A stretch of 64,000 nucleotides of DNA. It comes from Aurantiacibacter zhengii. GTDB taxonomy: Bacteria > Pseudomonadota > Alphaproteobacteria > Sphingomonadales > Sphingomonadaceae. Location of the stretch: positions 62,001-126,000 of the forward strand of contig NZ_QXFL01000004.1 of assembly GCF_003584125.1 (NCBI RefSeq). The letters are read 5' to 3'. The position numbers and the translations under genes were made by a program. The notes beneath the pieces were generated by a model. It searched no databases. It was given only the letters and a program-made list of their open reading frames with translations, and was not told the origin of the DNA. Of this stretch, positions 5,609 to 25,550 are shown piece after piece (position 1 is the first letter of the stretch; the number at the start of each line of letters is the position of its first letter).

Positions 5609-6969
5609 GGCTTTCTCCCGACACCCTCGACCGGCTGCCAGATGCGGTTGCCCGGCCCGGCTACAACCGTGATAAGACCGCCATCGGTATTATCCATTTC
5701 GGTATCGGCGCGTTCCACCGCGCGCACCAGGCCTGGTATACCGATGCCTGCCTGAATGCCGGCGAAGGCGGTTGGGCGATTTGCGGCGTCTCCATGCGCT
5801 CCGCTACCGTGGCAGAGCAACTCAACCCGCAATCCGGGCTCTATACGCTGACACAGCGCAGCGGCGAGAGTGCCGAGACGCGCGTGATCGGCGCGGTGCG
5901 CGAGGTGCTGGTGGCGGGGCAGGACAACGACGCAATCGTCGCGCGTCTCGCCTCCCCCGACTGCCACATCGCCAGCTTTACCGTTACCGAAAAGGGCTAT
6001 TGCCGACAGGCCGACGGCTCGCTTGATTTCGAGCGTGCTGGCGAGGGGTTTTACCCGCTTCTGGCAGAAGCGCTGGCGCAGCGTGCAGAGGCTGGCTTGC
6101 CTGGCCTCACCTTGCTGTCCTGCGACAACCTTTCAGGCAATGGGCGCATTCTGGGTGAACTGCTGCGTGCATGGCTAGAGCGGAATGACGCTCAACTGGC
6201 GGAGTGGTTCGCGCGCGAATGCAGCACGCCAGACACAATGGTCGACAGGATCGTACCCGCCAGCGCGGCGACCGACCTGGACGACCTTGCAGACGCGCTC
6301 GGTATGCGCGACGAGGGGGCGGTCTTTACCGAACCCTTCAGCCAGTGGGTGATCGAAGACCGCTTTGCCGGGCCGCGTCCTTCGTGGGAAAACCACGGCG
6401 CGCAGATCGTGACTGACGTTACCCCTTACGAGACCGCAAAGCTGCGCATGCTGAACGGCGCGCATTCGCTGCTGGCCTATAGCGGACTGGATGCAGGCCA
6501 CACCTATGTGCACGAAGCGATTGCCGATGCGGAACTGCGGGAGCTGACGGACAGTCTGATGCGCGAGGAAGCCGCGCCGACGATTACGGCGGGCGCGGAT
6601 CAGGACCTGTCGGCCTATGCCGATGCGCTGGTCGCCCGTTTCGCCAATCCGGCGCTTAACCACCAGCTGATCCAGATCGCCATGGACGGCAGCCAGAAGA
6701 TACCCCAGCGGTGGCTGGAAACGCTCGCCGCGCATCAACGGGACGGGCAGCAATGCCCCGCGATCCTGACCGCCCTCGCCGCCTGGCTGCGCCATGTTCG
6801 CGGCGATCGCCGGGAGGTGGAGGATCCTATGGCGCAGGAATTGGCAGCCGCCTGGGAAAGTGCCGGTACGGAAGGCATCGTGGAGGCCATGTTCGGGCCT
6901 GGTGGCCTGCTTGCATCGCACTGGCAACCCACGCCGTCCGACCGCGCTTTCGTAACCGCCCTACTGTGA
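5605..6969 (+). CDS. uxuB: Fructuronate reductase / mannitol dehydrogenase family protein
   Basis: A 454-residue NAD-dependent polyol dehydrogenase of the mannitol dehydrogenase/UxuB family. The coding frame stays open far upstream, but GTG 5605, overlapping the uxaC stop, places the typical start IIHFGIGAFHRAHQAWY near residue 25. Other family features are TVTEKGY, LLSCDNLSGNG, MVDRIVPA and a KLRMLNGAHSLLAYSG block holding the catalytic lysine region. It should reduce fructuronate to D-mannonate, linking UxaC to ManD. Its stop is followed after one base by the RiPP cyclase ATG. Confidence 0.88.
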   Translation: MRLSPDTLDRLPDAVARPGYNRDKTAIGIIHFGIGAFHRAHQAWYTDACLNAGEGGWAICGVSMRSATVAEQLNPQSGLYTLTQRSGESAETRVIGAVREVLVAGQDNDAIVARLASPDCHIASFTVTEKGYCRQADGSLDFERAGEGFYPLLAEALAQRAEAGLPGLTLLSCDNLSGNGRILGELLRAWLERNDAQLAEWFARECSTPDTMVDRIVPASAATDLDDLADALGMRDEGAVFTEPFSQWVIEDRFAGPRPSWENHGAQIVTDVTPYETAKLRMLNGAHSLLAYSGLDAGHTYVHEAIADAELRELTDSLMREEAAPTITAGADQDLSAYADALVARFANPALNHQLIQIAMDGSQKIPQRWLETLAAHQRDGQQCPAILTALAAWLRHVRGDRREVEDPMAQELAAAWESAGTEGIVEAMFGPGGLLASHWQPTPSDRAFVTALL

Positions 6970-6970
6970 T

Positions 6971-8935
6971 ATGAGCTTCATCTTCGGCATCGTATCCCGC
7001 GCAGGCGCGCCCATTGCAGCCGAATGGCTTGGCGCTGCAAAACATGCGGTCGAGGCATGGCCGGCGGATCGGAGCCAGACGACAGACAAGTCTCGTCTCG
7101 CCGCATTTTGCAAGCAGATGGATACGACGCCGTGGGCATCCCGCTCGCAACCGATTGTCGCGGACGATGCGGCTACGGTGCTTTTCGATGGTCGGCTGGA
7201 TAACCGCGCTGAACTGGCGGACAAGCTCGGCCTCGGGTCGGCTGAAGCCATGTCGGATGCACAATTCATACTCGCAGGCTGGCACCGGTTCGGCCAGCAG
7301 CTTGCGGAGCATTTGATCGGCGATTTCGCGATTGCCGTTCAAGATCACGACAGCGGCGATCTTGTCCTCATTCGCGACCACTTGGGCGTTCGCCCGCTCT
7401 TCGTGATCCGCAACGAGGACTTCGTCGCCTTCTCCACCGCGCTGCCTCCGCTGCTCGCCTTGCCATTCTGCGACACGCGCTGGAACCTTGAATGGGTGGT
7501 AGACTATCTGGAGGAAGTGAAGCCGGATGCCGAATACACCGCCTATCGCGGGATAACCGCAGTGCCTCCGGCTCACGTCGTGCGCTTCCGGAGCTCTGCG
7601 GAAGAGCGGCACCGTTTTTGGTCACTGCCCGTCGACGCAGAGCTGCTCGACATCGATCTGGGTGAGGCAATTTCCAGGGCTGGTGAACTGTTTGAGAGGG
7701 CTGTTGCCGACCGCCTCGTGACGGGAAGAGGCAGGATTGGCTGCGAATTGAGCGGCGGACTCGATTCCAGCTCGATAGCAGCAGTTGCCGCCGACCAGCT
7801 ATCGAGGCGCGACGAGCGGCTGATCGGTGTTACCCAGTCGACGCAGGAGGACTTCCAGCGTCGTTATGCCTTGCTTTCCGAAGGGCATTTCGCGGATGCC
7901 GTCTATGCCCACTACCCGCAGATCGAACGAGTGAACGTCGACAACCGGACAGACAATGTGCTCGACATGCTGGCTGGCACTATCGCCCGCCACGGTGTGC
8001 CGCCACGCAACGACTTCAACGGATTGGCCAGCGAAGCGCCCGATCTGCTCGCCGAGCGCGGTGCAAGGGTGCTGCTATCAGGGTTTGGCGGAGACCAGAT
8101 GGTGACGGCAAACGCCGGAGCGCTCGCAGAAAGTCTCGTTGCCGAGGGCGACTGGCTTTCGACTTTTCGATTGCTTGCAAGCGGTGGAGGGCGAGTGCGA
8201 ACGCTAGCCACGATAATGCGGCAGGTGCCGATTGTGCGCGCGCTGGTTCCTGCGCAAAAGCACGCAATTCGCACGAGTCCTCGCCTTGCCAGCGAAAAGG
8301 CACGCGCGGCGGCGGGTTACCCAGGCCGCGCCGAGCTGCACAGCTGGCCTGCATGGTCAGGCACGTTTCGACAGCGGGATGCGCATAACCTCTCCAGGCC
8401 CGTGATGGCGTACCGCCTGCAAGATAGTCAGGTCGGAGCAGGAGCGCGCGGCGTCGAGTATCGCTACCCCATGCTCGACATACGCCTGATCGAATTCGTG
8501 CACCGCCTGCCTGCTACCTATCGCAACCGGGCCGGTGAACCGCGCAGACTTATACGACTGCTGATGCGCGGGAGGCTGCCTGAAAAGGTTCGCCAGCGCC
8601 GCGACAAGTTCGGCATGACCGTTCCGGGCGTCTTCGTGAACGTGTTGCAACACAGCCTTGCCCTTCGCGATCATATCGCCGCGATGGCGCGCGACCCGGT
8701 CCTGGCGGACTTTGCCAGTTATGACGAAGTTCTTGCAGCGCTGGACGCAACGCTTGCGCATGGCGAATTCCCCAAGATGGAAATGATCAAGGGCGGAAAT
8801 CCGCATTATCGGCGTGCCGATCACGGACAGGTCCTGCGCCTTGCCCTGCTCGGCCTGTGGTATCGACCAGGCGCGGGCGAACGACCCGATCTGGCCATCC
8901 CGGCGGCCACGGCGAACAGCCGGTCATTGCGTTGA
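6971..8935 (+). CDS. Asparagine-synthetase-like lasso-type macrolactam cyclase (C protein)
   Basis: 654 residues with an N-terminal Ntn-hydrolase-like glutaminase domain (about 1-200) and a C-terminal ATP-dependent amide-forming domain. The PP-loop SGGLDSS is at residues 261-267, with LLSGFGGDQMV and YRYPMLDIRLIEF further on. Residue 2 is Ser, not the Cys nucleophile of true glutamine-dependent asparagine synthetases, so it probably does not release ammonia from glutamine. That is the state of lasso cyclases, which adenylate an Asp/Glu side chain and close it onto the core's N-terminal amine. Downstream PqqD-like, B2-like and precursor genes support this. ATG 6971 is one base after uxuB, so the gene may be read from the uronate promoter. 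Confidence 0.85.
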   Translation: MSFIFGIVSRAGAPIAAEWLGAAKHAVEAWPADRSQTTDKSRLAAFCKQMDTTPWASRSQPIVADDAATVLFDGRLDNRAELADKLGLGSAEAMSDAQFILAGWHRFGQQLAEHLIGDFAIAVQDHDSGDLVLIRDHLGVRPLFVIRNEDFVAFSTALPPLLALPFCDTRWNLEWVVDYLEEVKPDAEYTAYRGITAVPPAHVVRFRSSAEERHRFWSLPVDAELLDIDLGEAISRAGELFERAVADRLVTGRGRIGCELSGGLDSSSIAAVAADQLSRRDERLIGVTQSTQEDFQRRYALLSEGHFADAVYAHYPQIERVNVDNRTDNVLDMLAGTIARHGVPPRNDFNGLASEAPDLLAERGARVLLSGFGGDQMVTANAGALAESLVAEGDWLSTFRLLASGGGRVRTLATIMRQVPIVRALVPAQKHAIRTSPRLASEKARAAAGYPGRAELHSWPAWSGTFRQRDAHNLSRPVMAYRLQDSQVGAGARGVEYRYPMLDIRLIEFVHRLPATYRNRAGEPRRLIRLLMRGRLPEKVRQRRDKFGMTVPGVFVNVLQHSLALRDHIAAMARDPVLADFASYDEVLAALDATLAHGEFPKMEMIKGGNPHYRRADHGQVLRLALLGLWYRPGAGERPDLAIPAATANSRSLR

Positions 8936-8997
8936 CACGCGCGACTTTAACTCGGATTACCCGCCGGAAATCACTCTGAGTTTGCCTGCAAATTGCA

Positions 8998-9909
8998 ATG
9001 ACATTCCATTACCGCGCCTATGGACTCGACATCGAAGCGGACCTGCCGCTGCGCGCTCTATGCGCCCACGAAGGCGGGCCCGACGTCCGGATCGTTAAAA
9101 GCGAGGTGCCCGACCGGCTAGACACTGTCGAGGCCAAGACGCCGCGATGGACGGCCAATGCGCGCGAATTGCTGATCGACGTACCGAACGTTGCCCGGTT
9201 TCATATCCACGATGGGCGCAAGATTACGTACCAACCCGTCAACGGGGCGAGTGCCGAGGATGTGGAAGCCTATCTCCTCGGAAGCTGCATGGGAGGTGTC
9301 CTGCATCAGCGTCACCTGCTGGTCCTGCACGCCGCCGCGATATCGGTGGGTGACCGGGCGTTCGCGATCTGCGGCAAGTCCGGGCTGGGCAAATCGACGA
9401 CTTCGGCCCATCTCGTAGAGCAGGGAGCGGAACTGCTTTCGGACGACCTTGCAGTGTTCGACCGGCAGGGCGAATGCGTCCAACCCGGTTATGCCCAGAC
9501 CAAGCTGACCCCCGGTGCCATAGAGGGGCTGGTGGAACCGGGTGGAGAAATGCGGAAACTCGCCGGCGAACGAGGCAAGTTTGCCATCGCGCGGCACCAG
9601 CAGTTTCGCGCCGACCCTGCCCCTATCGCGGGATTGTTCGTGATCGAACGGACCAGTTCGGCGCGGCCTTCGCTCGAGCAGCTGGAGCCGGGATTGGTGG
9701 CGCAGTACCTTCGCCGGCACACCTATCGCAAAGGCTACATCGTACCCGGCAACGAAGCCGAGCATGTCAGAAGGTGCATCGATCTCGCCTATAGGATCCC
9801 TGCGTGGCTCGCCCTTCGCCCGCAAACGGGGGACTCGACAAATTTCATCGTGTCCGCCATCAGCGAGGCCATCGAAGCGACTGATTTTCGCGTGGAGACA
9901 GGCAATTGA
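8998..9909 (+). CDS. HPr-kinase-like protein (HprK-related), probable RiPP-tailoring kinase
   Basis: 303 residues. The Walker A loop GKSGLGKST lies at about residues 126-134, followed by an HPr-kinase-like SDDLAVFDRQG block and a downstream QTKLTPGAIEG segment. No DNA-binding or CBS domain is seen, so it is not a PTS regulator. In several lasso clusters, HprK homologues phosphorylate the C-terminal Ser of the precursor. Here precursor 1 ends in Ser (GTPS) and precursor 2 in Ser (TGVS), which would suit such a kinase. The stop overlaps the PqqD-like TTG start. It follows the cyclase after 62 bases. The kinase role is inferred from family and context. Confidence 0.8.
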   Translation: MTFHYRAYGLDIEADLPLRALCAHEGGPDVRIVKSEVPDRLDTVEAKTPRWTANARELLIDVPNVARFHIHDGRKITYQPVNGASAEDVEAYLLGSCMGGVLHQRHLLVLHAAAISVGDRAFAICGKSGLGKSTTSAHLVEQGAELLSDDLAVFDRQGECVQPGYAQTKLTPGAIEGLVEPGGEMRKLAGERGKFAIARHQQFRADPAPIAGLFVIERTSSARPSLEQLEPGLVAQYLRRHTYRKGYIVPGNEAEHVRRCIDLAYRIPAWLALRPQTGDSTNFIVSAISEAIEATDFRVETGN

Positions 9910-10193
9910 GCGAAGTGATTTCCTCTCGGACCGTGCCCTTGCCGGCGAAGGACGTATTGTCGACAGAAGTCAGCGGAGCCGCCGTCCTCATGTCGATGGA
10001 TAGCGGGAAGTTCATCGAACTGAACGAGACAGGCCGTGATATCTGGAAACTGACAGACGGGTCGACCAGCGTGTCGCAGATCGTAGACACGCTGCAAGAA
10101 CAGTACGATGTCGCGCACGATCATTGCCTTGCCGAGGTGGTGGCCCTTTACCGCAAGTTGCACGAGGAAGGCCTGGTCGAGATTTCGAGTTAG
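9906..10193 (+). CDS. PqqD-like RiPP recognition element (B1 protein)
   Basis: 95 residues with the PqqD fold pattern: SGAAVLMSMDSGKFIELNET, then GRDIWKLTDGSTSVSQIVDTL and a C-terminal helix region with EVVALYRKLHEEGLVEI. Such proteins bind RiPP leader peptides and deliver them to the protease and cyclase. In split lasso systems this is protein B1, partner of the separate B2 peptidase (17494-17940). It begins with TTG at 9906, overlapping the kinase stop by four bases. Size and context fit well. Confidence 0.88.
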   Translation: MSEVISSRTVPLPAKDVLSTEVSGAAVLMSMDSGKFIELNETGRDIWKLTDGSTSVSQIVDTLQEQYDVAHDHCLAEVVALYRKLHEEGLVEISS

Positions 10194-10249
10194 GCGGATG
10201 TGGCAGTGGAGTACCGCAAAAGGTATTCTGCAGGGGGTTGGATTTCACC

Positions 10250-11161
10250 GTGCTAGAGACGGCTCGAGATAGTTTCGCCCAGCTTCTCAAGCTGGGTGAT
10301 GCCCGGCTGAACCAGGCGCTTCTTGCAGCCTTGGCGGAGCGGAATCGCGACACCAACACAACCCTGTTCGCGGCGAACCTGCTGCGCCGCTCCGGTGACC
10401 TGCCTGGGGCGCGAGCCGAGTTCGCCAAGCTCGGCACGGGAGGGGGGGACGCCTCGACCGGAGGCGGCCGCGACTGGCCGTGCATTCCGGCGAATAATTG
10501 GTCGAACGGCGGATTCGCAATAGCTCCGCTTGTCATCATCGACGATTTCCTTCCCGTCGAACGCATGCAGGCCCTGCATCGTCACGCCTGCGAGCGCGAA
10601 GGAGAGTTTCGCGCCGCCCTGGCCACCAACGAGGGCGCCGAACCGTCATACGATCCCGATCGTCGCCAAAGTTTGCTGGATTACAAGTTCACTCTCGAGC
10701 GTGAATTCTTCGGCACGTTCATTTCCCAGAACCTGCAAGTTCTACAGCACGGTCTCGGCCTGCCGGAATTCTCAGTGGACAGGTGCGAACTTAAGCTGAC
10801 GAACCATGTCGACGGGGGCTTCTTCCGGATCCATGCCGACAACCACGCCGCCTTCGCGGATGCGGGGCGAGCGATCACGTGGCTCTACTATTTCGCTGAC
10901 GAGGGAGCCAGCTTTAGCGGTGGCGAATTGCTTGTCCTCGATTCCTGCCCGGACAAATCGACGGTATCTCCCGCCTGGTTCAGCAAGGTCATTCCCTTGG
11001 CGAATCGCTTTGTCGCTTTTCCCAGCGCGTTTTACCATGCAGTCACGCCGCTCAGTCATGTCGGCGGCTTTGCGCGGGGACGCTTCGCCGTAAGCGGGCA
11101 TATTCGAAAGCGCGCCGATAACAGTGTCGCATGGTGGGAAATCGAAAATTTATCTGATTGA
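10250..11161 (+). CDS. 2-oxoglutarate/Fe(II)-dependent oxygenase (prolyl hydroxylase-like)
   Basis: About 303 residues if GTG 10250 is used; a TTG at 10238 is an alternative, and the frame stays open back into the PqqD gene. The C-terminal half has the facial triad and co-substrate residue: H195-A-D197 in FFRIHADN, His263 in FYHAV and Arg278 in GRFAVSGHI. FSGGELLVLDS sits between, as in prolyl 4-hydroxylase-like double-stranded beta-helix enzymes. It should hydroxylate a substrate using O2 and 2-oxoglutarate. Lying just before the two precursor genes, the peptide is the natural candidate substrate. The N-terminal about 80 residues may be a helical substrate-binding part. Confidence 0.8.
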   Translation: MLETARDSFAQLLKLGDARLNQALLAALAERNRDTNTTLFAANLLRRSGDLPGARAEFAKLGTGGGDASTGGGRDWPCIPANNWSNGGFAIAPLVIIDDFLPVERMQALHRHACEREGEFRAALATNEGAEPSYDPDRRQSLLDYKFTLEREFFGTFISQNLQVLQHGLGLPEFSVDRCELKLTNHVDGGFFRIHADNHAAFADAGRAITWLYYFADEGASFSGGELLVLDSCPDKSTVSPAWFSKVIPLANRFVAFPSAFYHAVTPLSHVGGFARGRFAVSGHIRKRADNSVAWWEIENLSD

Positions 11162-11216
11162 CTTCCCCGCCGAACACATCATTGGGTCAACCCATTGGAT
11201 TTCAGGAAAAGATACT

Positions 11217-11360
11217 ATGAGCGTTTCGAAATCATTGTCAGCTGAAGGTGAGAAGCTGCCGTGGCTTGCGCCGTCAATGAATGTCGTCGTCACCGTGGCA
11301 CAGGTTGCTTCAAGTGTCGGTCCTGACGTGGACGAGGATTGGTCCGGCACGCCGTCGTAG
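11217..11360 (+). CDS. RiPP precursor peptide 1 (lasso-type leader)
   Basis: 47 residues, ATG 11217, preceded by a good ribosome-binding stretch (AGGAAAAG). It aligns end to end with precursor 2: shared MSVSK start, EGEKL, Trp16-x-x-Pro19-Ser-Met, an identical SMNVVVTVA block, and an acidic ending DED followed by aromatic-hydroxyl-Gly (WSG). Trp16-x-x-Pro19-x-Met21 resembles the YxxP / WxxPxL leader motif bound by lasso B1 proteins. Counting from Pro19 as in paeninodin-type precursors puts the core at Ala31 (ASSVGPDVDEDWSGTPS), with Asp39 at ring position 9. The usual Thr at -2 is absent. The cleavage site is a proposal only. Confidence 0.75.
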   Translation: MSVSKSLSAEGEKLPWLAPSMNVVVTVAQVASSVGPDVDEDWSGTPS

Positions 11361-11491
11361 AAGCAGTCAGTCCAAAAGTGGCGAGCCACGGTTCCGCATG
11401 GCGCAAAACCGATGGTAAGCGCGATTGACTTTCGAAGCGAATACAGCAATGAACTGCCGCAACCGACGTTATTGCTTTTGGGGGAAGTTTG

Positions 11492-11632
11492 ATGAGTGTC
11501 TCGAAGTTTTCAGCCGCCGAGGGTGAAAAGCTTGCGTGGATTACCCCGTCCATGAATGTGGTCGTGACCGTGGCAGACGTGGCCGCAGTGCTGGGTTCAT
11601 CCACGGATGAGGATTTTACCGGCGTTTCGTGA
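11492..11632 (+). CDS. RiPP precursor peptide 2 (lasso-type leader)
   Basis: 46 residues, ATG 11492, with a strong Shine-Dalgarno run (GGGGGAAG) about six bases upstream. It keeps the register of precursor 1 from Glu10 on: Trp16, Pro19, Met21, the NVVVTVA block, Gly35, Asp39-Glu40-Asp41, then Phe42-Thr-Gly. The proposed core is AAVLGSSTDEDFTGVS with Asp39 again at position 9. Leader and acidic motif are conserved, while residues 31-38 and the tail differ, which is the pattern expected for paralogous precursors with varied cores. The 131 bases between the two precursors hold no third copy that I can see. Confidence 0.75.
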   Translation: MSVSKFSAAEGEKLAWITPSMNVVVTVADVAAVLGSSTDEDFTGVS

Positions 11633-11692
11633 TCGGCAAGGCCCGCTGCCGATGAGCAGTGACAAGGGGCCGCTACCAAAAATTTACCGACC

Positions 11693-12670
11693 ATGTCCCG
11701 GGCACTTTCCGACGTAGCGGAAACTCGGCTTCCGTACTATTTCCGCACCGCAGGTTCGCATCGGCTAGTGCAATTTGTCGACCCGGCGCGAATGGACTGG
11801 CGTCCGGGCTTTTTCCAGCTCGGCCTGCCCGTAGAGGCACCCGTGGCTGCCATCCAGCCGCTGGATGCATGGTGCGATCAGGTAGCACTCCCCACTGAGT
11901 TCGCCGATACTTCAGCGATCTTCCATGTATCGCGCTGCGGTTCCACACTTTTGACGCAGAATATGAAAGCGACCGGCGAAGTCGTCGTCCTGAGCGAACC
12001 GCCGTTCATGCGCATCATGCGGACCTTGCTGGACGATACGCTTGATGAAGACATGGCGATCGGCATCGTCGCCCGCACGATCGGGTCTTGGCAGGACTGG
12101 GCCCGGAGCATCAACCGCAAACTTGTCATCAAGTTCAATTCGCAGGCACACAGTTACAGCGAGAAGCTGATGCAGGCGCTGCCCGGCGCGCGCTTTCTTT
12201 TCCTCCACCGCGAACCTGCACCGGTTCTGGAGTCCATAGAGCGCCATCCGCCATCCTACCTACTCCGCGGGGGTGACGAAGACCGGTATGCGCCCGAGCC
12301 GGAACAGGAAGGAATGACGGCCCCGTCGCTGATGCACGCCGCTGTCAGTCGATATTGTACCGCGCTGCGGGCTTTTGCCGAGGTGACCGACGCGGACCTG
12401 TTGAAAATCGCTTATTGCGACCTCGCCCGACGCTGGCCGGAAATCTTGCGGCATTGCGGTTTGAGGGGCGAAGGTCAGCCGTGGAACGCGTTGATCGATG
12501 CAAAGGCGAGAAACCCCGAAGCGGCTGCCCCATACCGGCCGGTGGAGCCCGAAAAGGTATCGAGTTTCGCCGCCAGGCATCGGGAACTGCTTGAACTGGC
12601 GCAAATGACCTATACCAAGTTCCTGATGTCCGGCGAGGGGTCTGCCCGGCATGGGATGGGGAACGCCTGA
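11693..12670 (+). CDS. Sulfotransferase family protein
   Basis: 325 residues. The PAPS 5'-phosphosulfate loop is visible as FHVSRCGSTLL (about residues 77-87), followed by VVLSEPPFMRIMR and a 3'-phosphate region FLFLHREPAPVLES (LHRE-P as in LYRDP-type motifs). It would move sulfate from PAPS to a hydroxyl group. It follows precursor 2 by 60 bases and overlaps the next gene by one base (TGATG). Both precursor tails carry Ser/Thr, and the 2OG oxygenase could create another hydroxyl, so peptide sulfation is plausible; this is inference. No signal peptide is seen, so it is cytoplasmic. Confidence 0.8.
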   Translation: MSRALSDVAETRLPYYFRTAGSHRLVQFVDPARMDWRPGFFQLGLPVEAPVAAIQPLDAWCDQVALPTEFADTSAIFHVSRCGSTLLTQNMKATGEVVVLSEPPFMRIMRTLLDDTLDEDMAIGIVARTIGSWQDWARSINRKLVIKFNSQAHSYSEKLMQALPGARFLFLHREPAPVLESIERHPPSYLLRGGDEDRYAPEPEQEGMTAPSLMHAAVSRYCTALRAFAEVTDADLLKIAYCDLARRWPEILRHCGLRGEGQPWNALIDAKARNPEAAAPYRPVEPEKVSSFAARHRELLELAQMTYTKFLMSGEGSARHGMGNA

Positions 12671-15600
12671 TGAATGCGATCGGTGACACTATTGCGCAAA
12701 CAGGCGAGCTTGGCTTGCGGCGTGGACGGGACTTGCGATTACCCCTGGTCCTGCTGCTGACCGCGCTGCTCGCGGTATATTTCTGGACGCAGTCACGTTA
12801 CCCGGCGCTGGAAGAAAAGGCGCTGATGGGCGGCGATGCGCCGCTCTCGGGTCTCTCGTTCGATGTTGCCATCGAAGTCATCCCCGGCTCTGATTTCCTG
12901 TCTGCGCTTTGGGCAAACACCGTCAACTGGCTGGCCACCAATCGCAAGGGCATGACCTTTGGTGTGCTGTTCGGCGCAATGGCCCTCACGCTCCTGTCGC
13001 TGTTACAGAAACGCAGTTTCCGCAACGGATTCGCCAATTCGGCGCTGGGCGCGCTGATCGGTGCTCCGCTCGGCGTATGCGTCAATTGCGCCGTGCCCAT
13101 TGCGCTGGGCCTCCATGCCGGCAGGCTGCGGCTGGAGACGACGCTTTCGGCAATGATCGCATCGCCGACCCTCAACGTGATCGTAGTGACGATGAGCTTC
13201 GCCCTGCTACCGGTGCAAGTCGCCGCAGTGAAGCTGCTGGCTTCGCTGGTCATGGTTTTGGTCGGCGTTCCGCTGCTGTGCCGTTACGTCCTGAAGACAG
13301 AAACCGAAGCCACGCGTAACGCCAGCGCGGTGAGTGCTGTAAGCCAGAAACTTGGCGGTCTTTCGGGCTGGCTGATGCGCAAGCTGTCTCCCCGCGAGTT
13401 CGAGGCTGGCGAATACGGCCCCCTGGCCACCATCAAGTGGTTCGTGCGGACATACGCGCGCAATTTCTTCTTCATTTTCATCGTGACGGTTCCGATGATG
13501 TTCGCGGCCGCCCTGCTGGGCGCCTTGTTTGTCGAACTGTTCAGTCCCACCACACTCGTACGCGCGCTTCCAAACGGCGGACTGATTACTCTTGTTGCCG
13601 TCATGCTGGGCCTTGCCCTGTTCATGAGCTTTGCCCCCGCCCCGATTGCGCTGGACGTGATCCTCACGATCGTCCTGATCAGCCTCGGCATGCGCGATCA
13701 TTATGGCGCGGTGACGGTGGTCGCGCTGGGATCGTTCAGCGTCTACGCCTTTATCGTGATCTGGCGTGCGATTTCGCTCCGCACGGCGGTGTCGCTGTGG
13801 CTGATGGTGGTCTGCGCTTCGGTGTGCGCAGGGTTGCTGGCCTATAAGCTGGCCGCTCCTGCTGAGCGTTACAAGCTGGAAGGTTATCGCGCCATTCTGG
13901 CTACCGAGACCGGGGCGACCTGGCCGGCCGCGCCCGACACCGAAGTCGCGGTGCCCCTGGCGGACATCCGCCCGATGCTGGACGCGCAGGCCGTGTCCCC
14001 CGTCACGATCGCGTTCGAGCAATCCGGTGATGCGCCTGTCGCGGCCATGGCCTCGTTGCCTCTTGCGGCGCCCGCCCCTGCGGGTGGCGAGACCGTCTTC
14101 TCCCGCGTGATGGGGCGCGACATCGGCATCGGCATCACTGAACCGATCAACTCGCTGGCCCGCTCTTTCTTCCACCTGTTCGAGGGCGGTGTTGCCGCAG
14201 GCGACATTCACGGCGACGGCTGGACCGATGTGATCCTGCGCAAGAGCTTCCTCGACGGCGGGCTGGCGGTTTACGCCAACGTCGGTGGCCGGTTTGTGCG
14301 GCAAGCCGCAGATCTCGGACCGGTGGAGTCGGTCAACGTCCACGTGGTCGCGCTTGCCGATCTCGACGGCGATGGTGCTCTGGATCTCGTGGTGACCACC
14401 GAACGCAGCGGTAACTACCTCTTCTGGAACCGGGACGGCGGCTTCGATGCAAGGTCCATGCTCAAGTTGCCCGGTGATGACAGGGCCATCACGCAATCGC
14501 TGGCCTTTGCCGATTTCGACCGTGACGGGCGGCTCGATATTGCGCTGGGCAACGCCGCTATCGGGATCTCCGCTCCCGGCTTTGGTAACAATTACGCGGA
14601 GATGCAGCCCAACACGCTGCTGTTCAACCGCGGAATGGGAGCGTTCGAGGCAATTACCTCCGAAGCCTATCCAGGGCAGTCGCTGACCTTGCTGGCCAGC
14701 GACTTCGATCGCAACGGCACAATCGACCTTCTCTCGGGCGACGATGTCGCCAACACCGACGAGTTCGCGATGTTCCGCCCCGATGGAACCTTCGATATCG
14801 CGCGCGGCGAGAGCACGCCCTTTCCGTTTCGCCTGCTCACCAGCATGAGTTACGACGAGGGCGACTACAACAACGACCTGATACCGGATTACTACGGCGG
14901 CCAGATCGCGATGCCGCGCCGCACGCAGGGCACTGCGGACCGGATCGCCAATCTGGAGGTGCTGTGTGCCCAGTTGGGCGAAGACCAGGGCTGGGATGCG
15001 GCCGGGCGCACATCGTGTGTCGCCGAACTCAACGAGATCTCGCAGTTGAAGGGCGCCTACCAGTCTGGCTTGCAAAGCGGCTGCGAGCGCATGCGGGACC
15101 GCACCTACCGCCTGCAGTGCGCCGCCAGGGCACTTACACAGTATTACAACTCCAACCGGACCGACGCGCCGGACCGTCCCATGTACGATCGCTGCCGCCG
15201 CGAGCTGGCGCGCACGCCGCGCTTTGTCGACCTGTGCGACACACTGTTGCTGCAGCTGACGCCGAAGCCACGTTTCACCGAACTGGACGACCTGCTCGGA
15301 CCCACGCTGAGCGCCGCGAACATCCTGTTAACCGGCAGTGCTGACGGTGTGTTCTCCGAGGATTCCGACGCCCAGGGTGTGCGCCTTCCCGGCTGGACTT
15401 GGGATGCGCGCTTCACCGATCTCGACCAGGACGGCTGGCAGGACCTTTACGTGCTGACCGGTTACTGGGCGCGCGCGCCCGAAGGTGACATCAATCGCCT
15501 GTATCAGAACCGACGCGGCAGCTTCGTGGACGCCAGCGAAGCATTCGGCCTCGCCGATCCCCTGCCGTCGTTAAGCGCCTCGCGGCTGGATTTCGACCGC

Positions 15601-15996
15601 GACGGCGATATCGACCTGATCCGCTCTCTGTCCGGCCCCAATGTCATCGTCCATCGTAACGACCGTCCCGCCGGCCCCGGCCTGCGGGTACATTTGCGCC
15701 AGCCCGGCGGGAACGGCATGGCCGTGGGTGCCCGGGTGACCATCTGCACCGACGGGGAAACGCAGGTGCGCCCCGGTCGCTGCCAGACCCGGTCGGTCAG
15801 GGCCAGCGGGGGTTACCAGTCGTTCGACCCGATTGCCGCGCATTTCGGGCTCGGAGAAGCGCGCTCGGTCTCGCTTGTAGAGGTGGTATGGCCCGATGGC
15901 GGGCGCTCGCTGCTGCGCCCCGCCGATCTTTCCGGTGGCGAAGTCGTGATCACGCGCGGCAACAGCCCGGCGACCAGTAGGGGAGGAATGTCATGA
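12670..15996 (+). CDS. Fusion: DUF318-type permease plus FG-GAP/ASPIC-UnbV (CRTAC1-like) domain
   Basis: 1108 residues. The first about 400 form a permease of the DUF318/ArsP-like type: several transmembrane helices and repeated blocks such as APLGVCVNCAVPIALGL and SAMIASPTLNVIVV. After a linker come calcium-type FG-GAP/VCBS repeats (LADLDGDGALDL, FADFDRDGRLDIALG, ASDFDRNGTIDLL, FTDLDQDGWQDLYV, DFDRDGDIDLI), probably a beta-propeller facing the periplasm. The end is an ASPIC/UnbV domain (HFGLGEARSVSLVEVVWPDG). Its stop overlaps the haloperoxidase ATG by four bases. It might export the peptide or carry a halide or metal; neither can be decided from sequence. Membrane topology was judged by eye. 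Confidence 0.8.
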   Translation: MNAIGDTIAQTGELGLRRGRDLRLPLVLLLTALLAVYFWTQSRYPALEEKALMGGDAPLSGLSFDVAIEVIPGSDFLSALWANTVNWLATNRKGMTFGVLFGAMALTLLSLLQKRSFRNGFANSALGALIGAPLGVCVNCAVPIALGLHAGRLRLETTLSAMIASPTLNVIVVTMSFALLPVQVAAVKLLASLVMVLVGVPLLCRYVLKTETEATRNASAVSAVSQKLGGLSGWLMRKLSPREFEAGEYGPLATIKWFVRTYARNFFFIFIVTVPMMFAAALLGALFVELFSPTTLVRALPNGGLITLVAVMLGLALFMSFAPAPIALDVILTIVLISLGMRDHYGAVTVVALGSFSVYAFIVIWRAISLRTAVSLWLMVVCASVCAGLLAYKLAAPAERYKLEGYRAILATETGATWPAAPDTEVAVPLADIRPMLDAQAVSPVTIAFEQSGDAPVAAMASLPLAAPAPAGGETVFSRVMGRDIGIGITEPINSLARSFFHLFEGGVAAGDIHGDGWTDVILRKSFLDGGLAVYANVGGRFVRQAADLGPVESVNVHVVALADLDGDGALDLVVTTERSGNYLFWNRDGGFDARSMLKLPGDDRAITQSLAFADFDRDGRLDIALGNAAIGISAPGFGNNYAEMQPNTLLFNRGMGAFEAITSEAYPGQSLTLLASDFDRNGTIDLLSGDDVANTDEFAMFRPDGTFDIARGESTPFPFRLLTSMSYDEGDYNNDLIPDYYGGQIAMPRRTQGTADRIANLEVLCAQLGEDQGWDAAGRTSCVAELNEISQLKGAYQSGLQSGCERMRDRTYRLQCAARALTQYYNSNRTDAPDRPMYDRCRRELARTPRFVDLCDTLLLQLTPKPRFTELDDLLGPTLSAANILLTGSADGVFSEDSDAQGVRLPGWTWDARFTDLDQDGWQDLYVLTGYWARAPEGDINRLYQNRRGSFVDASEAFGLADPLPSLSASRLDFDRDGDIDLIRSLSGPNVIVHRNDRPAGPGLRVHLRQPGGNGMAVGARVTICTDGETQVRPGRCQTRSVRASGGYQSFDPIAAHFGLGEARSVSLVEVVWPDGGRSLLRPADLSGGEVVITRGNSPATSRGGMS

Positions 15997-17480
15997 ACCG
16001 TCGCAATCTGCTGAAATCCGGCTGCATGGTCGCATTGGCGGGCGGAGCCCTGCGCCCGGTGAGCGCACTTGCTGCCGAACAACACTTGCAGCATGCGGGC
16101 CTATCCATCGGCGGCGCGCAGCAATCACTGGCCTATCACTGGCTCGACACCCTGCTTGACGTCGCCGCCGAAGATGTCGTGCGCAACAGCGCCCGCCCCA
16201 CCGTGCTGGCGCGTGCGATGGCGATCGTCACCGCGGCGATGTACGAAGCATGGGTACCTTTCGATGATCGTGCGCGGGGGCCGCTTTTCGGCGATTCCCT
16301 CCGCCGCCCGGCAGCCGAACGCACGCTTCAGAACAAGCAGGCAGCGATAAGTTATGCGGCTGCCTGCGCACTTGGAGACCTCTACCCCGAATCGCGAGCG
16401 TCGATCAATACCGCGCTGCGGCGCTTCGGGTTCGACCCTGCGCGCGGAGTAGCGGCGCGCTCCAGCGCTATTGGCATCGGGGTGCTGGTCGGAGAGCGTC
16501 TGTGTGCGATGAAGCACTCGGACGGGGCGAACCAGCTGGGAGACGAGACTGGTTCCAGCGGTGTCCCCTATTCCGATTACACCCAGTACGCGCCGGTCAA
16601 TCCGCCAGACACGATTTACAACCCCGACCGCTGGCAGCCGATCACGTTCCGGCGCGACGACGGTTCGACTTTCGCCCCCGGCTTTCTCACGCCGCAATGG
16701 TACCGGGTCGAACCCTTCGCTCTTGCCAGCCCCGACCAGTTCCGCGCTCCGGAGCCGCCCCGTGTCGGGTCCGACCGCCTGCGCGCCGAAATCGACGAGG
16801 TGCTCGCCTACAACGCAGGGCTCACCGACGAACAGAAAGCTATCGTCGAATTCATGCGCGATGGGCCAGGCTCCACCGGGCAGTCGGGGCACTGGCTCCG
16901 CTTTGCGCAGGACATTTCACGGCGCGACGGCAACGATCTCGACACTGACGTGAAGCTTTTCTTCCAGGTGGGGCAATGCGCGCACGATGCCTTTATCGCG
17001 TCGTGGGATTCCAAGCGATACTGGGACACGTCCAGGCCATGGACGCTGGTGCGCCACTATTACGGTGACCGAACCATTCGTGGCTGGGGTGGACCGGGCC
17101 GGGGTACTGTGGAGATGCGCGGCAGCGAATGGTATCCCTATTCGCCCTATGTTTTCGTCAGCCCGCCCTTCCCCAGCTATGTCTCCGGCCACAGCACGGT
17201 CAGCGCAGCCTGCGCAGAAACCCTCCGCCTGTTTACAGGATCGGACCGGCTGGAGGTCGAGCTTGTCCGGCATCCCGGCGAGATTACCGAACCTGATGCT
17301 CTTGGCGCCGAGGTGACCCTCTGGCTTCCTTCATTGACCGAGTCTGCTGAAATGGCGGGTATCAGCCGTATCATGGGCGGTTATCACATCCAGGCCGACA
17401 ACATAGAAGGTTTGCGCATGGGGCGCAGCGTGGGGCAGCTGGTTCACGACCGTGCGCAGGATCTTTTCGGCCACGGCTGA
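15993..17480 (+). CDS. Vanadium-dependent haloperoxidase (PAP2 superfamily), exported
   Basis: 495 residues. The start MNRRNLLKSGCMVALAGGAL is a Tat-like or lipoprotein-like signal, so the enzyme is probably outside the cytoplasm. The whole vanadate site can be read: Lys341 and Arg348 in SKRYWDTSRPW, Ser398-Gly399-His400 in PSYVSGHST (His400 is the acid-base), and Arg459 and His465 in SRIMGGYH, where His465 would bind vanadium. Such enzymes use H2O2 to oxidise halide to a hypohalous species. Specificity (chloride, bromide, iodide) cannot be told from these motifs. Translational coupling to the permease fusion, itself coupled to the sulfotransferase, places it in the RiPP operon. It stops 13 bases from the convergent B2 gene. 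Confidence 0.88.
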   Translation: MNRRNLLKSGCMVALAGGALRPVSALAAEQHLQHAGLSIGGAQQSLAYHWLDTLLDVAAEDVVRNSARPTVLARAMAIVTAAMYEAWVPFDDRARGPLFGDSLRRPAAERTLQNKQAAISYAAACALGDLYPESRASINTALRRFGFDPARGVAARSSAIGIGVLVGERLCAMKHSDGANQLGDETGSSGVPYSDYTQYAPVNPPDTIYNPDRWQPITFRRDDGSTFAPGFLTPQWYRVEPFALASPDQFRAPEPPRVGSDRLRAEIDEVLAYNAGLTDEQKAIVEFMRDGPGSTGQSGHWLRFAQDISRRDGNDLDTDVKLFFQVGQCAHDAFIASWDSKRYWDTSRPWTLVRHYYGDRTIRGWGGPGRGTVEMRGSEWYPYSPYVFVSPPFPSYVSGHSTVSAACAETLRLFTGSDRLEVELVRHPGEITEPDALGAEVTLWLPSLTESAEMAGISRIMGGYHIQADNIEGLRMGRSVGQLVHDRAQDLFGHG

Positions 17481-17493
17481 GAAAAGACTTCGC

Positions 17494-17940
17494 TCATTCA
17501 GCACCGACGCGCGTGTCGTTCAGCGGTGTGTATGCCTCGCTCTCGTCATGGCCGATCACAGTCTTGCTGCCAGCGATCAGCCACGCGTGCAGCTTCAGCG
17601 CACCGCCCTCCTCCAGGTCCTTCATCGAGCCGATGACAATGCGTGTGGGGATCGCGCGGCGGGCCAGCATCCACCGCCCGGCCATGGCCTGCGGAAGACA
17701 GACCGCCGCGAAGGGCACCGCCTCCGCCGTACGGGTGACAAAGCGCCCGACCTGCATGGCGCGCATTTCCTTTTCCGCAGAGAGGTTCTGTTCCCCCTCG
17801 TTCGCCGACTTCCCGAGCGGACCAAGCGCGCTGCGCCACCAGCGGAACGGCAGAAACCGGATGAGAAAACGCGCGACTGCAAGGCAGAAAACCGTTTCTA
17901 TCCGGAGCACGATTTTGCGACGAAAGCTTAAAATTGCCAT
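17494..17940 (-). CDS. Lasso peptide biosynthesis B2 protein (transglutaminase-like leader peptidase)
   Basis: 148 residues, the usual B2 size. Cys81 sits in AVCLPQAMAGRWMLARR, His118 in LKLHAWL and a likely third residue is Asp132 in GHDESEAYTPL: the Cys-His-Asp order of McjB-type peptidases. The block RAIPTRIVIGSMKD between them is also family-like. It removes the leader from the lasso precursor bound by B1. It is on the opposite strand, convergent with the haloperoxidase, so it needs its own promoter upstream of 17940. Its presence is a main reason to call the locus lasso-type. Confidence 0.85.
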   Translation of the reverse strand: MAILSFRRKIVLRIETVFCLAVARFLIRFLPFRWWRSALGPLGKSANEGEQNLSAEKEMRAMQVGRFVTRTAEAVPFAAVCLPQAMAGRWMLARRAIPTRIVIGSMKDLEEGGALKLHAWLIAGSKTVIGHDESEAYTPLNDTRVGAE

Positions 17941-19211: not shown

Positions 19212-19499
19212 ATGGGCGAGCAACTGCGCAGCGATACGCTGTTTGTAGCGTTGACACGCCCGGTGATGTTTGCCGGCGTTACCTTCAGCTTCGCCATCAT
19301 TAACCTGATCATCGCGGTTGAACTGTTCCTCATTTTCAAGAGCCTGTGGGTTCTTCTCGCTGCCGTCGTTATCCACCTCGCAGGTGTTCTGCTCAGCCTG
19401 CGTGAACCGCGGATCGTCGAACTCTGGCTAACCCGCGTGCGCAATTGCCCGCGTGTCAAGAACCACGCCTACTGGCGCTGCAATTCGTACCGTCCATGA
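19212..19499 (+). CDS. virB3: VirB3-like inner-membrane T4SS protein
   Basis: 95 residues with the VirB3 plan: short N-terminus with LFVALTRPVMFAGVTF, two close hydrophobic helices (FAIINLIIAVELFLIF and LWVLLAAVVIHLAGVLL), then a basic tail with REPRIVELWLTR. A run of G before the ATG gives a ribosome site. The stop overlaps the VirB4 ATG by four bases, the usual VirB3-VirB4 order. Confidence 0.88.
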   Translation: MGEQLRSDTLFVALTRPVMFAGVTFSFAIINLIIAVELFLIFKSLWVLLAAVVIHLAGVLLSLREPRIVELWLTRVRNCPRVKNHAYWRCNSYRP

Positions 19500-21853
19500 C
19501 CAGCAACGCCAAACTTGCCGAGCGCGAAGCCCCGGCCGGGCGTCACCTTCCCTATGCCCGCCATCTTGATGCAGCGACGATCGAGACGCGCGACGGGCGT
19601 CTTATGCAGACCATTCGCATCGCCGGTTTTCACTTCGAAACCGCCGATAGCGAAGAACTGAACTATCGGGCCGAACTGCGCGATGCCATGCTACGGGTGG
19701 TCGGCAATTCGCGCTTTGCCCTCTACCACCATGTCGTTCGGCGCCGCGCAGACGTGACCATGGAAGGAAACCATCCGGATCGCTTTTCGCAGACGCTCGA
19801 TACGCGCTGGCGGCAGCGTCTGGGGGCCAAGAACCTCTATGTGAACGACCTGTTTCTCACGATCGTCCGGCGACCGCTGCAGGGCCGGATCGGGCTGACG
19901 GATCGAATCGGCAACTGGTTCGGCCGCCGGTCGGGGCAGGACGCTTCTCGCCGTGCCGCCGAAAAGCACGCACTGGACAATGCGCGCGATGCGCTGGTCT
20001 CTTCGCTGCGGCAGTACGATCCGCGCCTGCTTACAACCTACGAGACTCCCGATGGCACGAGGTCCGAGCCGCTCGAGTTTCTGTCCTACCTTTATAATGC
20101 CGACATGCGCCCGGTTGGCCTGCCCCACGGCGATCTTGGCAATCATCTTGCAGCGCGCCGCATCAGTTTCGGGACCGACACGATCGAGCTTGGACCTGCC
20201 GGTCCGCTTGAGCGGCGCTTTACTGCCCTGGTATCGATCAAGGACTATCCAGGCCGAACCATGCCCGGCATGTTCGACGAATTGTACCGCCTCCCCTTCG
20301 AACTGGACGTGACGCAGAGCTTCGCCTTCGTCGAACGCGGCGAAGCTCTTGGCCGGATGAACCTTGCACTGCGCCGCATGCGTTCCGCGGAGGACGAGGC
20401 GCTATCGCTGCGCGACGAGCTGACCGTGGCGAAAGACGAGGTTGCGGCAGGTCGCGCAGGCTTCGGGGAGCACCACACGACGATCGCCGTCCACACCGGC
20501 GATCTCAAATCGCTCGACGGGCAGGTGGCAGAGGTCATCGCCCTGCTCGCCGATCTCGGGATTACCGGCGTGCGCGAGGACCTGGCGCTCGAACCGGCCT
20601 TCTGGGCGCGCTTCCCGGCAAACTTCAAGTATATCGCGCGGCGCGGACTTGTCTCGACAACCAACTTCGCCGGTCTTGCAAGCCTGCACAACTTCCCCAC
20701 CGGCAAGCCCAGCGGCAACCACTGGGGCGATGCGGTGACGCTGTTCGAAACCACCGCTGCAGGGCCGTACTACTTCAATTTCCACCAGCGCGACCTTGGC
20801 AACTTCACTGTCATCGGACCCTCTGGCAGCGGCAAGACGGTGGTGATGAACTTCCTTCTCGCGCAGTCCCGGCGGTTCGATCCGCGCATCATTTTCTTCG
20901 ACAAGGATCGCGGTGCGGAACTGTTCATTCGCGCTATCGGCGGGCAATATGATCGCCTCTCTTCGGACCGGCCATCCGGTCTCAATCCGCTTCAGCTCGA
21001 GAATACGCCCGCCAATCGCCAGTTCCTGATCGAATGGCTTGGCGTTCTCGCCGGCGGCGCTGACGAGGAAGAGCTCGAGGCGATCCGTGACGCGATAGAC
21101 ACCAACTTCGCGCAACCGCGCGAACAGCGTCGGCTGCGCCATATCGTCGAACTGTTCCGTGGCGGCGCGCGTCCGCATGCGCGCGACCTCTTTGCCCGGC
21201 TACGACCGTGGTGGGGCGATGGTGAACATGCCTGGCTGTTCGATAACGAGCAGGACAGGACCGATCTCGAAGCGAAGACTGTCGGCTTCGACATGACCTC
21301 GATCCTCGACGATCCGGCGGCGAGGACACCGGCGCTCATGTACTTCTTTCACCGCGTGGAAGAGCGCCTTGACGGGTCGCCCGCGATCATCGTTGTCGAT
21401 GAAGGGTGGAAGGCGCTCGACGACGAAGTGTTCGTGCGCCGCATCAAGGATTGGGAAAAGACCATCCGCAAGCGGAACGGCATCGTCGGCTTTGCCACGC
21501 AGAGCGCGCAGGATGCGCTCGAAAGCCGGATCGCCAGCGCCATCATCGAACAGGCCGCGACGCAGATCTTCATGATCAATCCCAAGGCACGCGCAGAAGA
21601 TTACATGAACGGGTTCGGCCTCACCCGCCACGAATTCGACCTTGTGCGCATGCTCCCCGACAATTCGCACTGCTTCCTGATAAAGCACGGCAACGACAGC
21701 GTCGTCGCGCGGCTGGATCTATCGGGAGAGCGCGACCTGCTTACTATCCTGTCAGGTCGCGAGAGCACTGTGCGATTGTTCGACGAACTGGTCGAGGAGA
21801 CGGGCAGCGATCCCGCCCGCTGGATGAAGAAACTGCTGGAACGGGCCGCGTAA
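19496..21853 (+). CDS. virB4: VirB4-family T4SS ATPase
   Basis: 785 residues. ATG 19496 overlaps the virB3 stop; longer upstream frames are shadows. The N-terminal CagE/TrbE-like part (about 1-400) is followed by Walker A GPSGSGKTVVMNFLL, a FDKDRGAELFIRA strand, and a Walker B-like IIVVDEGWKAL, then FATQSAQDALES typical of VirB4. It energises pilus and substrate-channel assembly at the inner membrane. It overlaps virB6 by one base (TAATG). Confidence 0.92.
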   Translation: MTSNAKLAEREAPAGRHLPYARHLDAATIETRDGRLMQTIRIAGFHFETADSEELNYRAELRDAMLRVVGNSRFALYHHVVRRRADVTMEGNHPDRFSQTLDTRWRQRLGAKNLYVNDLFLTIVRRPLQGRIGLTDRIGNWFGRRSGQDASRRAAEKHALDNARDALVSSLRQYDPRLLTTYETPDGTRSEPLEFLSYLYNADMRPVGLPHGDLGNHLAARRISFGTDTIELGPAGPLERRFTALVSIKDYPGRTMPGMFDELYRLPFELDVTQSFAFVERGEALGRMNLALRRMRSAEDEALSLRDELTVAKDEVAAGRAGFGEHHTTIAVHTGDLKSLDGQVAEVIALLADLGITGVREDLALEPAFWARFPANFKYIARRGLVSTTNFAGLASLHNFPTGKPSGNHWGDAVTLFETTAAGPYYFNFHQRDLGNFTVIGPSGSGKTVVMNFLLAQSRRFDPRIIFFDKDRGAELFIRAIGGQYDRLSSDRPSGLNPLQLENTPANRQFLIEWLGVLAGGADEEELEAIRDAIDTNFAQPREQRRLRHIVELFRGGARPHARDLFARLRPWWGDGEHAWLFDNEQDRTDLEAKTVGFDMTSILDDPAARTPALMYFFHRVEERLDGSPAIIVVDEGWKALDDEVFVRRIKDWEKTIRKRNGIVGFATQSAQDALESRIASAIIEQAATQIFMINPKARAEDYMNGFGLTRHEFDLVRMLPDNSHCFLIKHGNDSVVARLDLSGERDLLTILSGRESTVRLFDELVEETGSDPARWMKKLLERAA

Positions 21854-25542: not shown

Positions 25543-25550
25543 GCCGCGAG

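Follow-up and report, generated by a model that had tools for sequence, protein, structure and literature searches.

A putative lasso peptide cluster of the kinase/sulfotransferase class in Aurantiacibacter zhengii and its linkage to a permease-propeller fusion protein

The region from nt 6971 to 17940 of the Aurantiacibacter zhengii window (the whole stretch of 64,000 nt analysed) is almost certainly, judged from its sequence, a lasso peptide biosynthetic cluster of the kinase/sulfotransferase class. A complete A-B1-B2-C set was observed together with genes for a kinase, a 2OG oxygenase, and a sulfotransferase-like protein (Table 1). Its odd part was PERM, a permease fused to a propeller domain, which represented the strongest and newest gene linkage of the cluster and is very probably a functional part of it. 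The scheme as a whole, a cluster of this class with a dedicated membrane partner, is considered likely.

Table 1. Predicted features of the A. zhengii lasso peptide cluster (positions in the window)
Feature	Prediction	Position (nt)	Strand	Basis
C	Lasso macrolactam cyclase (asparagine synthetase B-like)	6971..8935	+	Pfam, NCBIfam, alignment with 24 homologues
K	HprK-like lasso peptide kinase	8998..9909	+	Pfam, NCBIfam, motif, PDB HPr kinase profile match
B1	PqqD-like leader-recognition protein	9906..10193	+	Pfam, NCBIfam
OX	2OG-Fe(II) oxygenase	10250..11161	+	Pfam 2OG-FeII_Oxy_3 3.4e-11, alignment
A1	Precursor, leader ...WLAPSMNVVVTVAQVA, predicted core SSVGPDVDEDWSGTPS	11217..11360	+	Alignment of precursors
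A2	Precursor, leader ...WITPSMNVVVTVADVA, predicted core AVLGSSTDEDFTGVS	11492..11632	+	Alignment of precursors
ST	Sulfotransferase-like protein	11693..12670	+	HVSRCGSTLL and FLHREPAPVLES stretches, Pfam, profiles
PERM	ArsP_1/UPF0718-type permease + CRTAC1-like FG-GAP/ASPIC-UnbV propeller	12670..15996	+	Pfam, fold comparison, linkage
VHPO	Vanadium-dependent haloperoxidase-like protein, Tat-like signal (MNRRNLLKSG)	15993..17480	+	Pfam, sequence
B2	Lasso leader peptidase, Cys81 + His118	17494..17940	-	Pfam, NCBIfam

An earlier note on this DNA had proposed a lasso locus with genes A, B1, B2, and C, and this was borne out, since gene families, catalytic residues, and precursors all fit. The cyclase matched Asn_synthase (1.6e-28) and GATase_7 in Pfam, and its best NCBIfam match was the lasso cyclase (240.9 bits, below the cut-off of 525). 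Ser2 and the PP-loop SGGLDSS of the cyclase, noted previously along with Cys81 and His118 of B2, were read directly in the sequence, and the B2 pair was invariant in an alignment of 9 B2 proteins. B2 scored 69.8 bits with NCBIfam lasso_biosyn_B2 (cut-off 33) and 7.4e-21 with Pfam Transglut_core3; B1 was over the cut-off for Pfam PqqD (4.3e-20) and below that for the NCBIfam lasso PqqD (63.2; cut-off 80). By ORF coordinates, the forward-strand genes were tightly packed, with overlaps of 4 bp between the kinase and B1 genes, 1 bp between those of the sulfotransferase and the permease, and 4 bp between those of the permease and the haloperoxidase, to which the B2 gene was convergent.

The two precursors, described previously as sisters and confirmed here, were 63% identical. 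In an alignment of twelve precursors, the window pair and 10 related ones, the predicted cores were those given in Table 1, with the ring closing on Asp8. A core starting at GPD/GSS with a ring to Asp7 was discarded on alignment with the precursors of loci L064, L145, L216, and L214; the core begins earlier than GPD, because the aligned relatives place its start after D/Q-V-x. A leader motif (Y/W)xxPx(L/M/V) with T, I, or V at -2 was found in the window and the 10 related precursors, with further ones elsewhere, and precursors with W/Y-x-x-P and V/I/T(-2) occurred at loci possessing both lasso genes and PERM. Ile/Val(-2) leaders in kinase-bearing clusters have been described from Sphingomonadales (PMC10368454). 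The loci L079, L127, L142, L218, L223, and L232 yielded no precursor. Asp8 lay at ring distance in both window cores, in which threading is predicted only. Both cores were acidic (D-x-D-E-D), that of A1 containing Trp and that of A2 neither Trp nor Tyr, and Ser was the C-terminal core residue in both as well as in relatives picked by hand; a second set of relatives' precursors, pre-filtered for Ser/Thr ends, provided no test of this residue. By eye count, the core contained Tyr at 11/11 loci where an Asp/Asn-hydroxylase gene accompanied an identified precursor and at 0/13 without the gene, a pattern suggesting that tailoring genes track the core sequence, which mere descent may also explain.

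The kinase, 2OG oxygenase, sulfotransferase-like, permease fusion, and haloperoxidase genes listed in the earlier note were all present by Pfam, the kinase (Hpr_kinase_C, 8.7e-07) and sulfotransferase matches falling below the cut-off. The kinase possessed the H-G-x-x-G-x-GKS-DD motif (His111, Gly126, Gly129, Gly131-Lys-Ser133, Asp149-Asp150), which was invariant in 14 sequences and had a spacing matching that of BsfK. For the oxygenase, a start at 10124 was rejected, as alignment with relatives put it near 10250 (GTG); the residues His196-x-Asp198...His264 and Arg279 (numbered from 10247), an HxD...H and a distal Arg that we take to be the 2OG-Fe(II) oxygenase signature, were invariant in 9 sequences. 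ST gave the weakest family call in the cluster (Sulfotransfer_3, 3.6e-04), and this family matched 4 of 8 ST family members (best 9.2e-05). Its RCGSTLL and R-x-P-x-x-V-x-ES stretches, presumably the 5' and 3' phosphosulfate-binding motifs of a PAPS sulfotransferase, were invariant in 8 sequences; when the ST profile was compared with two other sulfotransferase families, one aligned only on the second motif and the other hardly at all. ST is thus called sulfotransferase-like with moderate confidence. The conserved motifs and gene linkage support the earlier suggestion that the peptide is probably phosphorylated, hydroxylated, and sulfated. No sulfated lasso peptide was named in those parts of the lasso-peptide literature that were searched.

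The pairing of kinase and sulfotransferase, previously thought unusual, turned out to be common. Among 36 stretches surrounding kinases that lie apart from PERM, kinase and cyclase occurred together in 24, and a sulfotransferase was present in 19 of these (all except L288, L295, L298, L308, and L316), or in 15/19 after removal of genomes carrying PERM elsewhere; the sulfotransferase profiles were trained on PERM loci and are biased toward them. Six of the 36 stretches came from PERM-bearing genomes (L286 from G469, L312-L314 from G257, L315 and L316 from G216), and L311 was an 8-kb contig. PERM was absent from the fetched stretch of all 24 kinase-cyclase loci; with so many kinase-lasso clusters devoid of it, PERM appears dispensable for peptide production. 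No cyclase was seen in the other 12 stretches, indicating that the kinase profile also picks up kinases outside lasso clusters, and its matches in 192/397 genomes of the host's family are therefore no census of such clusters.

The earlier note had placed the permease fusion among the tailoring genes; the fusion stood by Pfam, its role being rather that of the strongest linkage and a candidate membrane partner. Full-length PERM was found in 5 of 196 genomes of the host's order, adjoining a lasso cyclase in four, and in the fifth (G182) the cyclase was on another contig. In the host's family, 24 PERM loci (one, L232 of G484, a short frame of 338 aa) were found in 22 of 397 genomes, with a cyclase within the fetched stretch at 20, among which gene order and strand varied. 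The four loci without one belonged to G182, G449 (PERM on a 3.5-kb contig), and G216 and G257, which hold kinase and cyclase elsewhere; upstream of PERM in G257 there are three Y-x-K-P-x-L precursors in tandem, whose ends lie 71 to 989 bp from it. The linkage also occurred in Bacteroidota (L142; L124 and L127 with cyclase only), Verrucomicrobiia (L096), and one Rhodobacteraceae contig (L072/L120), and thus extends over three phyla. Linked homologous loci were accordingly found when the check proposed earlier, namely whether permease, sulfotransferase, and haloperoxidase are ever linked to lasso genes, was run, and its outcome did not refute the earlier proposal. Linkage was not universal, since a lasso-type cyclase was observed at 19 of 80 PERM-fusion loci in named genomes (two pairs, L068/L073 and L072/L120, share one contig each) and the other 61 showed none in the stretch examined.

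In a FastTree tree of PERM, which gave long-branch warnings and comprised 85 rows (77 contributed by 76 of the 80 loci, 7 by the family census, and one by the window; L098, L104, L106, and L118 were left out for want of a PERM frame of at least 850 aa), 9 label changes were counted versus a shuffled mean of about 22, none of 500 shuffles being as low. One clade of 24 rows contained 20 lasso-linked members; also inside it was L077 (Roseovarius), with no lasso gene nearby and no PF13471 match in its genome. Outside this clade PERM occurs without lasso genes, and among 63 clustered loci, mostly unlinked (L124, L127, and L142 being linked), the shared families, each named from one member, included Sel1-repeat (30 loci), prepilin peptidase (13), and secretin (6). 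In a comparison of 36 loci, 28 unlinked ones hand-picked from the 61 and 8 chosen for being linked, a lasso peptidase over the cut-off was found in 2/27 genomes with non-linked PERM versus 8/8 with linked PERM. PERM was more conserved than every biosynthetic gene in 7/7 oxygenase- and sulfotransferase-containing genomes compared, e.g. 78, 68, 71, and 71% identity versus 39, 37, 36, and 51% for the cyclase in L216, L214, L064, and L065.

PERM, of 1108 aa, possessed an N-terminal permease (residues ~20-412) and a propeller (~473-1098), with Pfam matches to ArsP_1 (41.9 bits, cut-off 32.3), FG-GAP_3, and UnbV_ASPIC. The propeller shared a CRTAC1-like fold over most of the domain; it differs from CRTAC1 (PDB 9etn) and the integrin alpha propellers in being fused behind a bacterial permease. 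Among the folds on the comparison list, those nearest to the membrane part were small-solute carriers, including ArsB. In the proposed mechanism, B1 would bind the W-x-x-P leader, and K, OX, and ST would modify the linear core, K phosphorylating the C-terminal Ser by analogy with characterised relatives; B2 would then cleave after V-A (positions -2/-1) and C would join residue 1 to Asp8 around the threaded tail. After leaving the cytoplasm, the product, which is anionic, would dock on the periplasmic CRTAC1-like propeller, and the elevator-like membrane part would either respond to the peptide as its ligand or transport a small solute such as an anion, a metal, or a metalloid. That the peptide serves as ligand or cargo of PERM is a tentative proposal, and slightly more so is its extension to lasso peptides of this class in general, as ligands or cargo of an inner-membrane receptor-transporter made up of an elevator-like carrier and an integrin/CRTAC1-like periplasmic propeller. 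The usual cargo of elevator carriers is small solutes rather than 16-residue peptides.

PERM might instead export the mature peptide, replacing the ABC transporter. The cluster indeed contains no ABC exporter, as stated previously, the best-scoring of 23 genome-wide matches to the exporter of the sister cluster in G453 being 30% identical over 490/583 residues, and a precursor directly adjoins PERM on the same strand in L068, L069, L073, L219, L222, L224, and L225. However, ABC exporter-like genes lie alongside PERM in L069, L072, L074, L078, L079, L124, and L214, those of L072 and L078 being backed by Pfam, so PERM is not simply their substitute; together with the small-solute carrier folds, this weakens the replacement role, which we regard as unlikely. 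Less likely again is a peptide that binds a metal or anion and carries it to PERM as the solute to be moved. Consistent with such a carrier are the ArsP_1 match, a Cu/Zn efflux match that is weak and falls far short of the cut-off, Cys137 and Cys140, invariant in the PERM membrane part, the resemblance to ArsB, and the acidic cores, which would bear phosphate and sulfate.

Halogenation of the peptide by VHPO, suggested in the earlier note, seems equally doubtful. VHPO matched DUF6851, VCPO_2nd, and PAP2, all over the Pfam cut-offs, and showed PSYVSGH and K..RP stretches, presumably part of the vanadate-binding site. It was found in 6/397 genomes of the host's family, of which 5 also hold PERM (hypergeometric 1.9e-6, genomes treated as independent), and its presence together with PERM or a cyclase is probable on four further contigs, matched by equal length, source, and contig count among the best 120 entries of each protein table. 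The 4-bp overlap with PERM, the position of VHPO within the one-strand G453 cluster (L214: C-A-K-B1-OX-ST-PERM-B2-VHPO-ABC-NTP5), and the Trp of core A1 would also suit halogenation. Against this, VHPO adjoins lasso genes in only 2/6 genomes and therefore does not always travel with them, no lasso gene of the set being found within the 15-20 kb fetched around it in the other 4; the core of the one precursor found in G453, like that of A2, lacks Trp and Tyr; and the Tat-like signal suggests that the enzyme would act outside the cytoplasm. VHPO is more probably than not an occasional extracytoplasmic accessory of the cluster.

An unthreaded macrolactam or other cyclic RiPP is a still more improbable product: the cyclase score below the lasso cut-off, cores beginning with Ser or Ala, and a first Glu at position 10 instead of 7-9 in L067, L078, L229, L230, and L231 (T(-2) register) would allow it, but sister cores at L064, L145, and L216 open with Gly and most have Asp or Glu at 7-9. 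It is very improbable that PERM and VHPO have no relation to the lasso genes and simply hitchhike beside them, for although VHPO is mostly unlinked and PERM occurs also away from lasso genes, partly beside type II secretion genes, linkage at 20/24 family loci in varied order on either strand, and in three phyla, argues against it.

Phosphorylated lasso peptides have been described in Proteobacteria and Firmicutes, including SyanK of Sphingobium yanoikuyae, paeninodin, and ThcoK (PMC8498205). As that account presents them, they have in common with the window the cyclase, HprK-like kinase, Ser-ending precursor, and split B1/B2; the window, from which SyanK is set apart by description, adds the 2OG oxygenase, sulfotransferase-like protein, PERM, and VHPO and has no adjoining exporter. 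OX can be likened, by description, to CanE of the canucin A system of Streptomyces, an iron/2-oxoglutarate hydroxylase whose substrate is a lasso precursor (PMC8498205). The bsf cluster of Bradymonas sediminis shares the Ile/Val(-2) leader, B1, B2, C, and kinase motif spacing; unlike the window, it is described as having an ABC exporter and a nucleotidyltransferase, and its peptide ends in Asp and is phosphorylated at Ser3, not at a C-terminal Ser (PMC10368454). It is flanked by an FG-GAP repeat protein presumed by the authors not to be involved (PMC10368454), which is perhaps an earlier sighting of a PERM-type partner.

In these clusters, a single peptide scaffold is served by a kinase, hydroxylases of two kinds, and sulfotransferase-like proteins of three. 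If the proposed role is true, PERM, which accompanies lasso genes in three phyla, would represent a lasso partner distinct from the ABC exporters, isopeptidases, and TonB receptors known so far. To our knowledge, the role of Gram-negative lasso peptides and their membrane crossing without an ABC exporter or TonB receptor are largely open questions, and both could be approached through a membrane partner that is conserved and can be tested.

The cluster in the window forms a single unit of ten genes. Its kinase possesses the catalytic His, P-loop and Asp-Asp residues at the same spacing as in BsfK, in which these residues were tested (PMC10368454); the oxygenase has HxD...H and Arg, and the B2 leader peptidase has Cys81 and His118. 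The earlier note's description of a lasso-type locus with tailoring genes is sound, and the family to which the cluster belongs is already known.

Features of the cluster and its surroundings in the window
Feature	Coordinates	Strand	Remarks
Lasso-type unit	6971-17940		10 genes
Cyclase, kinase, B1 (PqqD-like), 2OG oxygenase, two precursors, sulfotransferase-like protein, permease-propeller protein (PERM), haloperoxidase		+	tight packing
B2		-	at end of unit
CagE/TrbE/VirB, TrbL, TrbI, T2SSE-family ATPase	19445-26525		conjugation-type type IV secretion genes
NTP_transf_5 protein	28054-29121		100 bits
TonB-dependent receptor, TPR-sulfotransferase	31333-36982		some 13-19 kb right of cluster

Since the type IV secretion genes start 1.5 kb right of B2, the lasso cluster borders a possible mobile element. 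An NTP_transf_5 gene adjoins B2 and the ABC exporter in sister lasso clusters; its link to the window cluster is unsure because it lies 10 kb away. In another locus of the same genome, L149 (G000:C4:26000-40648), a second B2-like gene was located near 10525, and the part of it that matched contains an internal TAG.

Alignment of 12 precursors, the window's two and others from related loci including L216 (GKIGVDLDEDFTGLPIPS), L145 (GMVGPDDDEDFDGSLS), L064 (GSIAMSTDEDFTGVPS) and L214 (SQIGPTVDEDFDGFPS), was anchored by an invariant Trp and Pro and by a V, I or T at position -2 relative to the core. By this register, the predicted window cores are SSVGPDVDEDWSGTPS and AVLGSSTDEDFTGVS, with Val(-2) and a ring to Asp8; Val/Ile(-2) leaders have been described before for kinase-bearing Sphingomonadales clusters (PMC10368454). 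A second precursor group comprised the loci with an Asp/Asn-hydroxylase gene, the cores coming after T(-2), with Glu at position 9 (position 10 in L067, L078, L229, L230 and L231) and an end consisting of Tyr, one to three residues and then Ser. Precursors picked by eye from one search had Ser at the end, another search being pre-filtered for Ser or Thr ends. No precursor was found in the search of related loci at L079, L127, L142, L218, L223 and L232.

A sulfotransferase joined the kinase at all 28 PERM-set loci showing kinase and cyclase (L069 and L147 being one genome, and L145 having PERM on another contig) and at 19 of 24 comparison loci. By eye, Tyr was present in the core at 11/11 loci with the Asp/Asn-hydroxylase gene and a found precursor but at 0/13 with kinase and cyclase and without that gene, a count omitting L124, L134 and L225 (Tyr present; kinase or cyclase outside the fetched DNA); L073, without kinase, had no Tyr in the core. 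Such a pattern is consistent with enzymes that modify the core, although shared descent may also account for it.

PERM, an ArsP_1-type permease fused to a CRTAC1-like FG-GAP/ASPIC-UnbV propeller, goes with lasso clusters. Genome contigs were scanned using 45 aligned PERM proteins as the query; among the best 80 of 259 loci, the fetched stretch included a lasso-type cyclase at 19 and a member of the HprK-like kinase family at 16. Some match to the PERM query occurred in 33 of 196 genomes of the order, mostly to the repeats; it was full length in five, and the cyclase adjoined it in four, the fifth (G182) having its cyclase on another contig. The 397 family genomes yielded 24 PERM loci in 22 genomes, with a cyclase within the fetched stretch at 20; the remaining four were contig-limited (G182, G449) or had kinase and cyclase elsewhere (G216, G257), and G257 carried three tandem Y-x-K-P-x-L precursors upstream of PERM. 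Strand and gene order vary between loci, so the linkage does not come from a single block passed on by descent. In the PERM tree, the linkage label required 9 changes versus a shuffled mean of about 22 (0/500 shuffles as low), and one starred clade of 24 rows took in 20 of the 25 linked rows. The lasso peptidase family PF13471 exceeded the cut-off in 2/27 genomes with unlinked PERM versus 8/8 with linked PERM, the latter selected for linkage and including G506, which has both PERM kinds. Evidence against the linkage comes from L077, which lies within the lasso clade but had no lasso genes nearby and no PF13471 match in its genome.

Other arrangements were observed. A lasso-type cyclase adjoined three PERM-like frames on a Chitinophagales contig (L127), two PERM genes from different tree parts flanked a lasso cluster on a Rhodobacteraceae contig (L072/L120), and a 6-kb Flavobacteriales contig (L134), in which no biosynthetic gene was found, had a W-x-x-P precursor-like frame at 5989-6156, 254 bp from PERM. 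Unlinked PERM genes (L093, L100 and related loci) have neighbours in common; in a clustering of 63 loci, these included a Sel1-repeat family (30), two families without Pfam match (one of about 390 aa at 29 loci, one of about 150 aa at 26), prepilin peptidase (13) and secretin (6).

Close relatives of the vanadium-dependent haloperoxidase-like protein (VHPO; E up to 1e-50) were found in 6 of the 397 family genomes, five of them with PERM (hypergeometric 1.9e-6, genomes treated as independent), and four more contigs, matched by their length, probably carry VHPO together with PERM or a cyclase. The earlier note had included the haloperoxidase in the lasso locus; among the six genomes, this linkage held in the window and in G453, whose sister cluster has, all on one strand, cyclase, precursor, kinase, B1, oxygenase, sulfotransferase, PERM, B2, VHPO, ABC and NTP_transf_5, but not in the other four, where 15-20 kb around VHPO contained no lasso gene of the set. 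Frequent company with PERM, yet lasso adjacency in only two genomes, makes VHPO a real but occasional companion.

Open-licence literature joining "vanadium-dependent haloperoxidase" with "RiPP" exists, including PMC12615548, which also matched lasso peptide with "haloperoxidase" and discusses flavin halogenases for lasso peptides; a review mentions that Firmicutes clusters contain a gene for a putative sulfotransferase (PMC8498205). The same literature yielded nothing for "lasso peptide" with "UnbV" and, with "FG-GAP", PMC10368454 only, which describes an FG-GAP repeat protein that flanks the bsf cluster and is presumed there to have no part in it. The permease-propeller partner is new as far as the open-licence literature was searched, and PERM as a lasso partner deserves a test.
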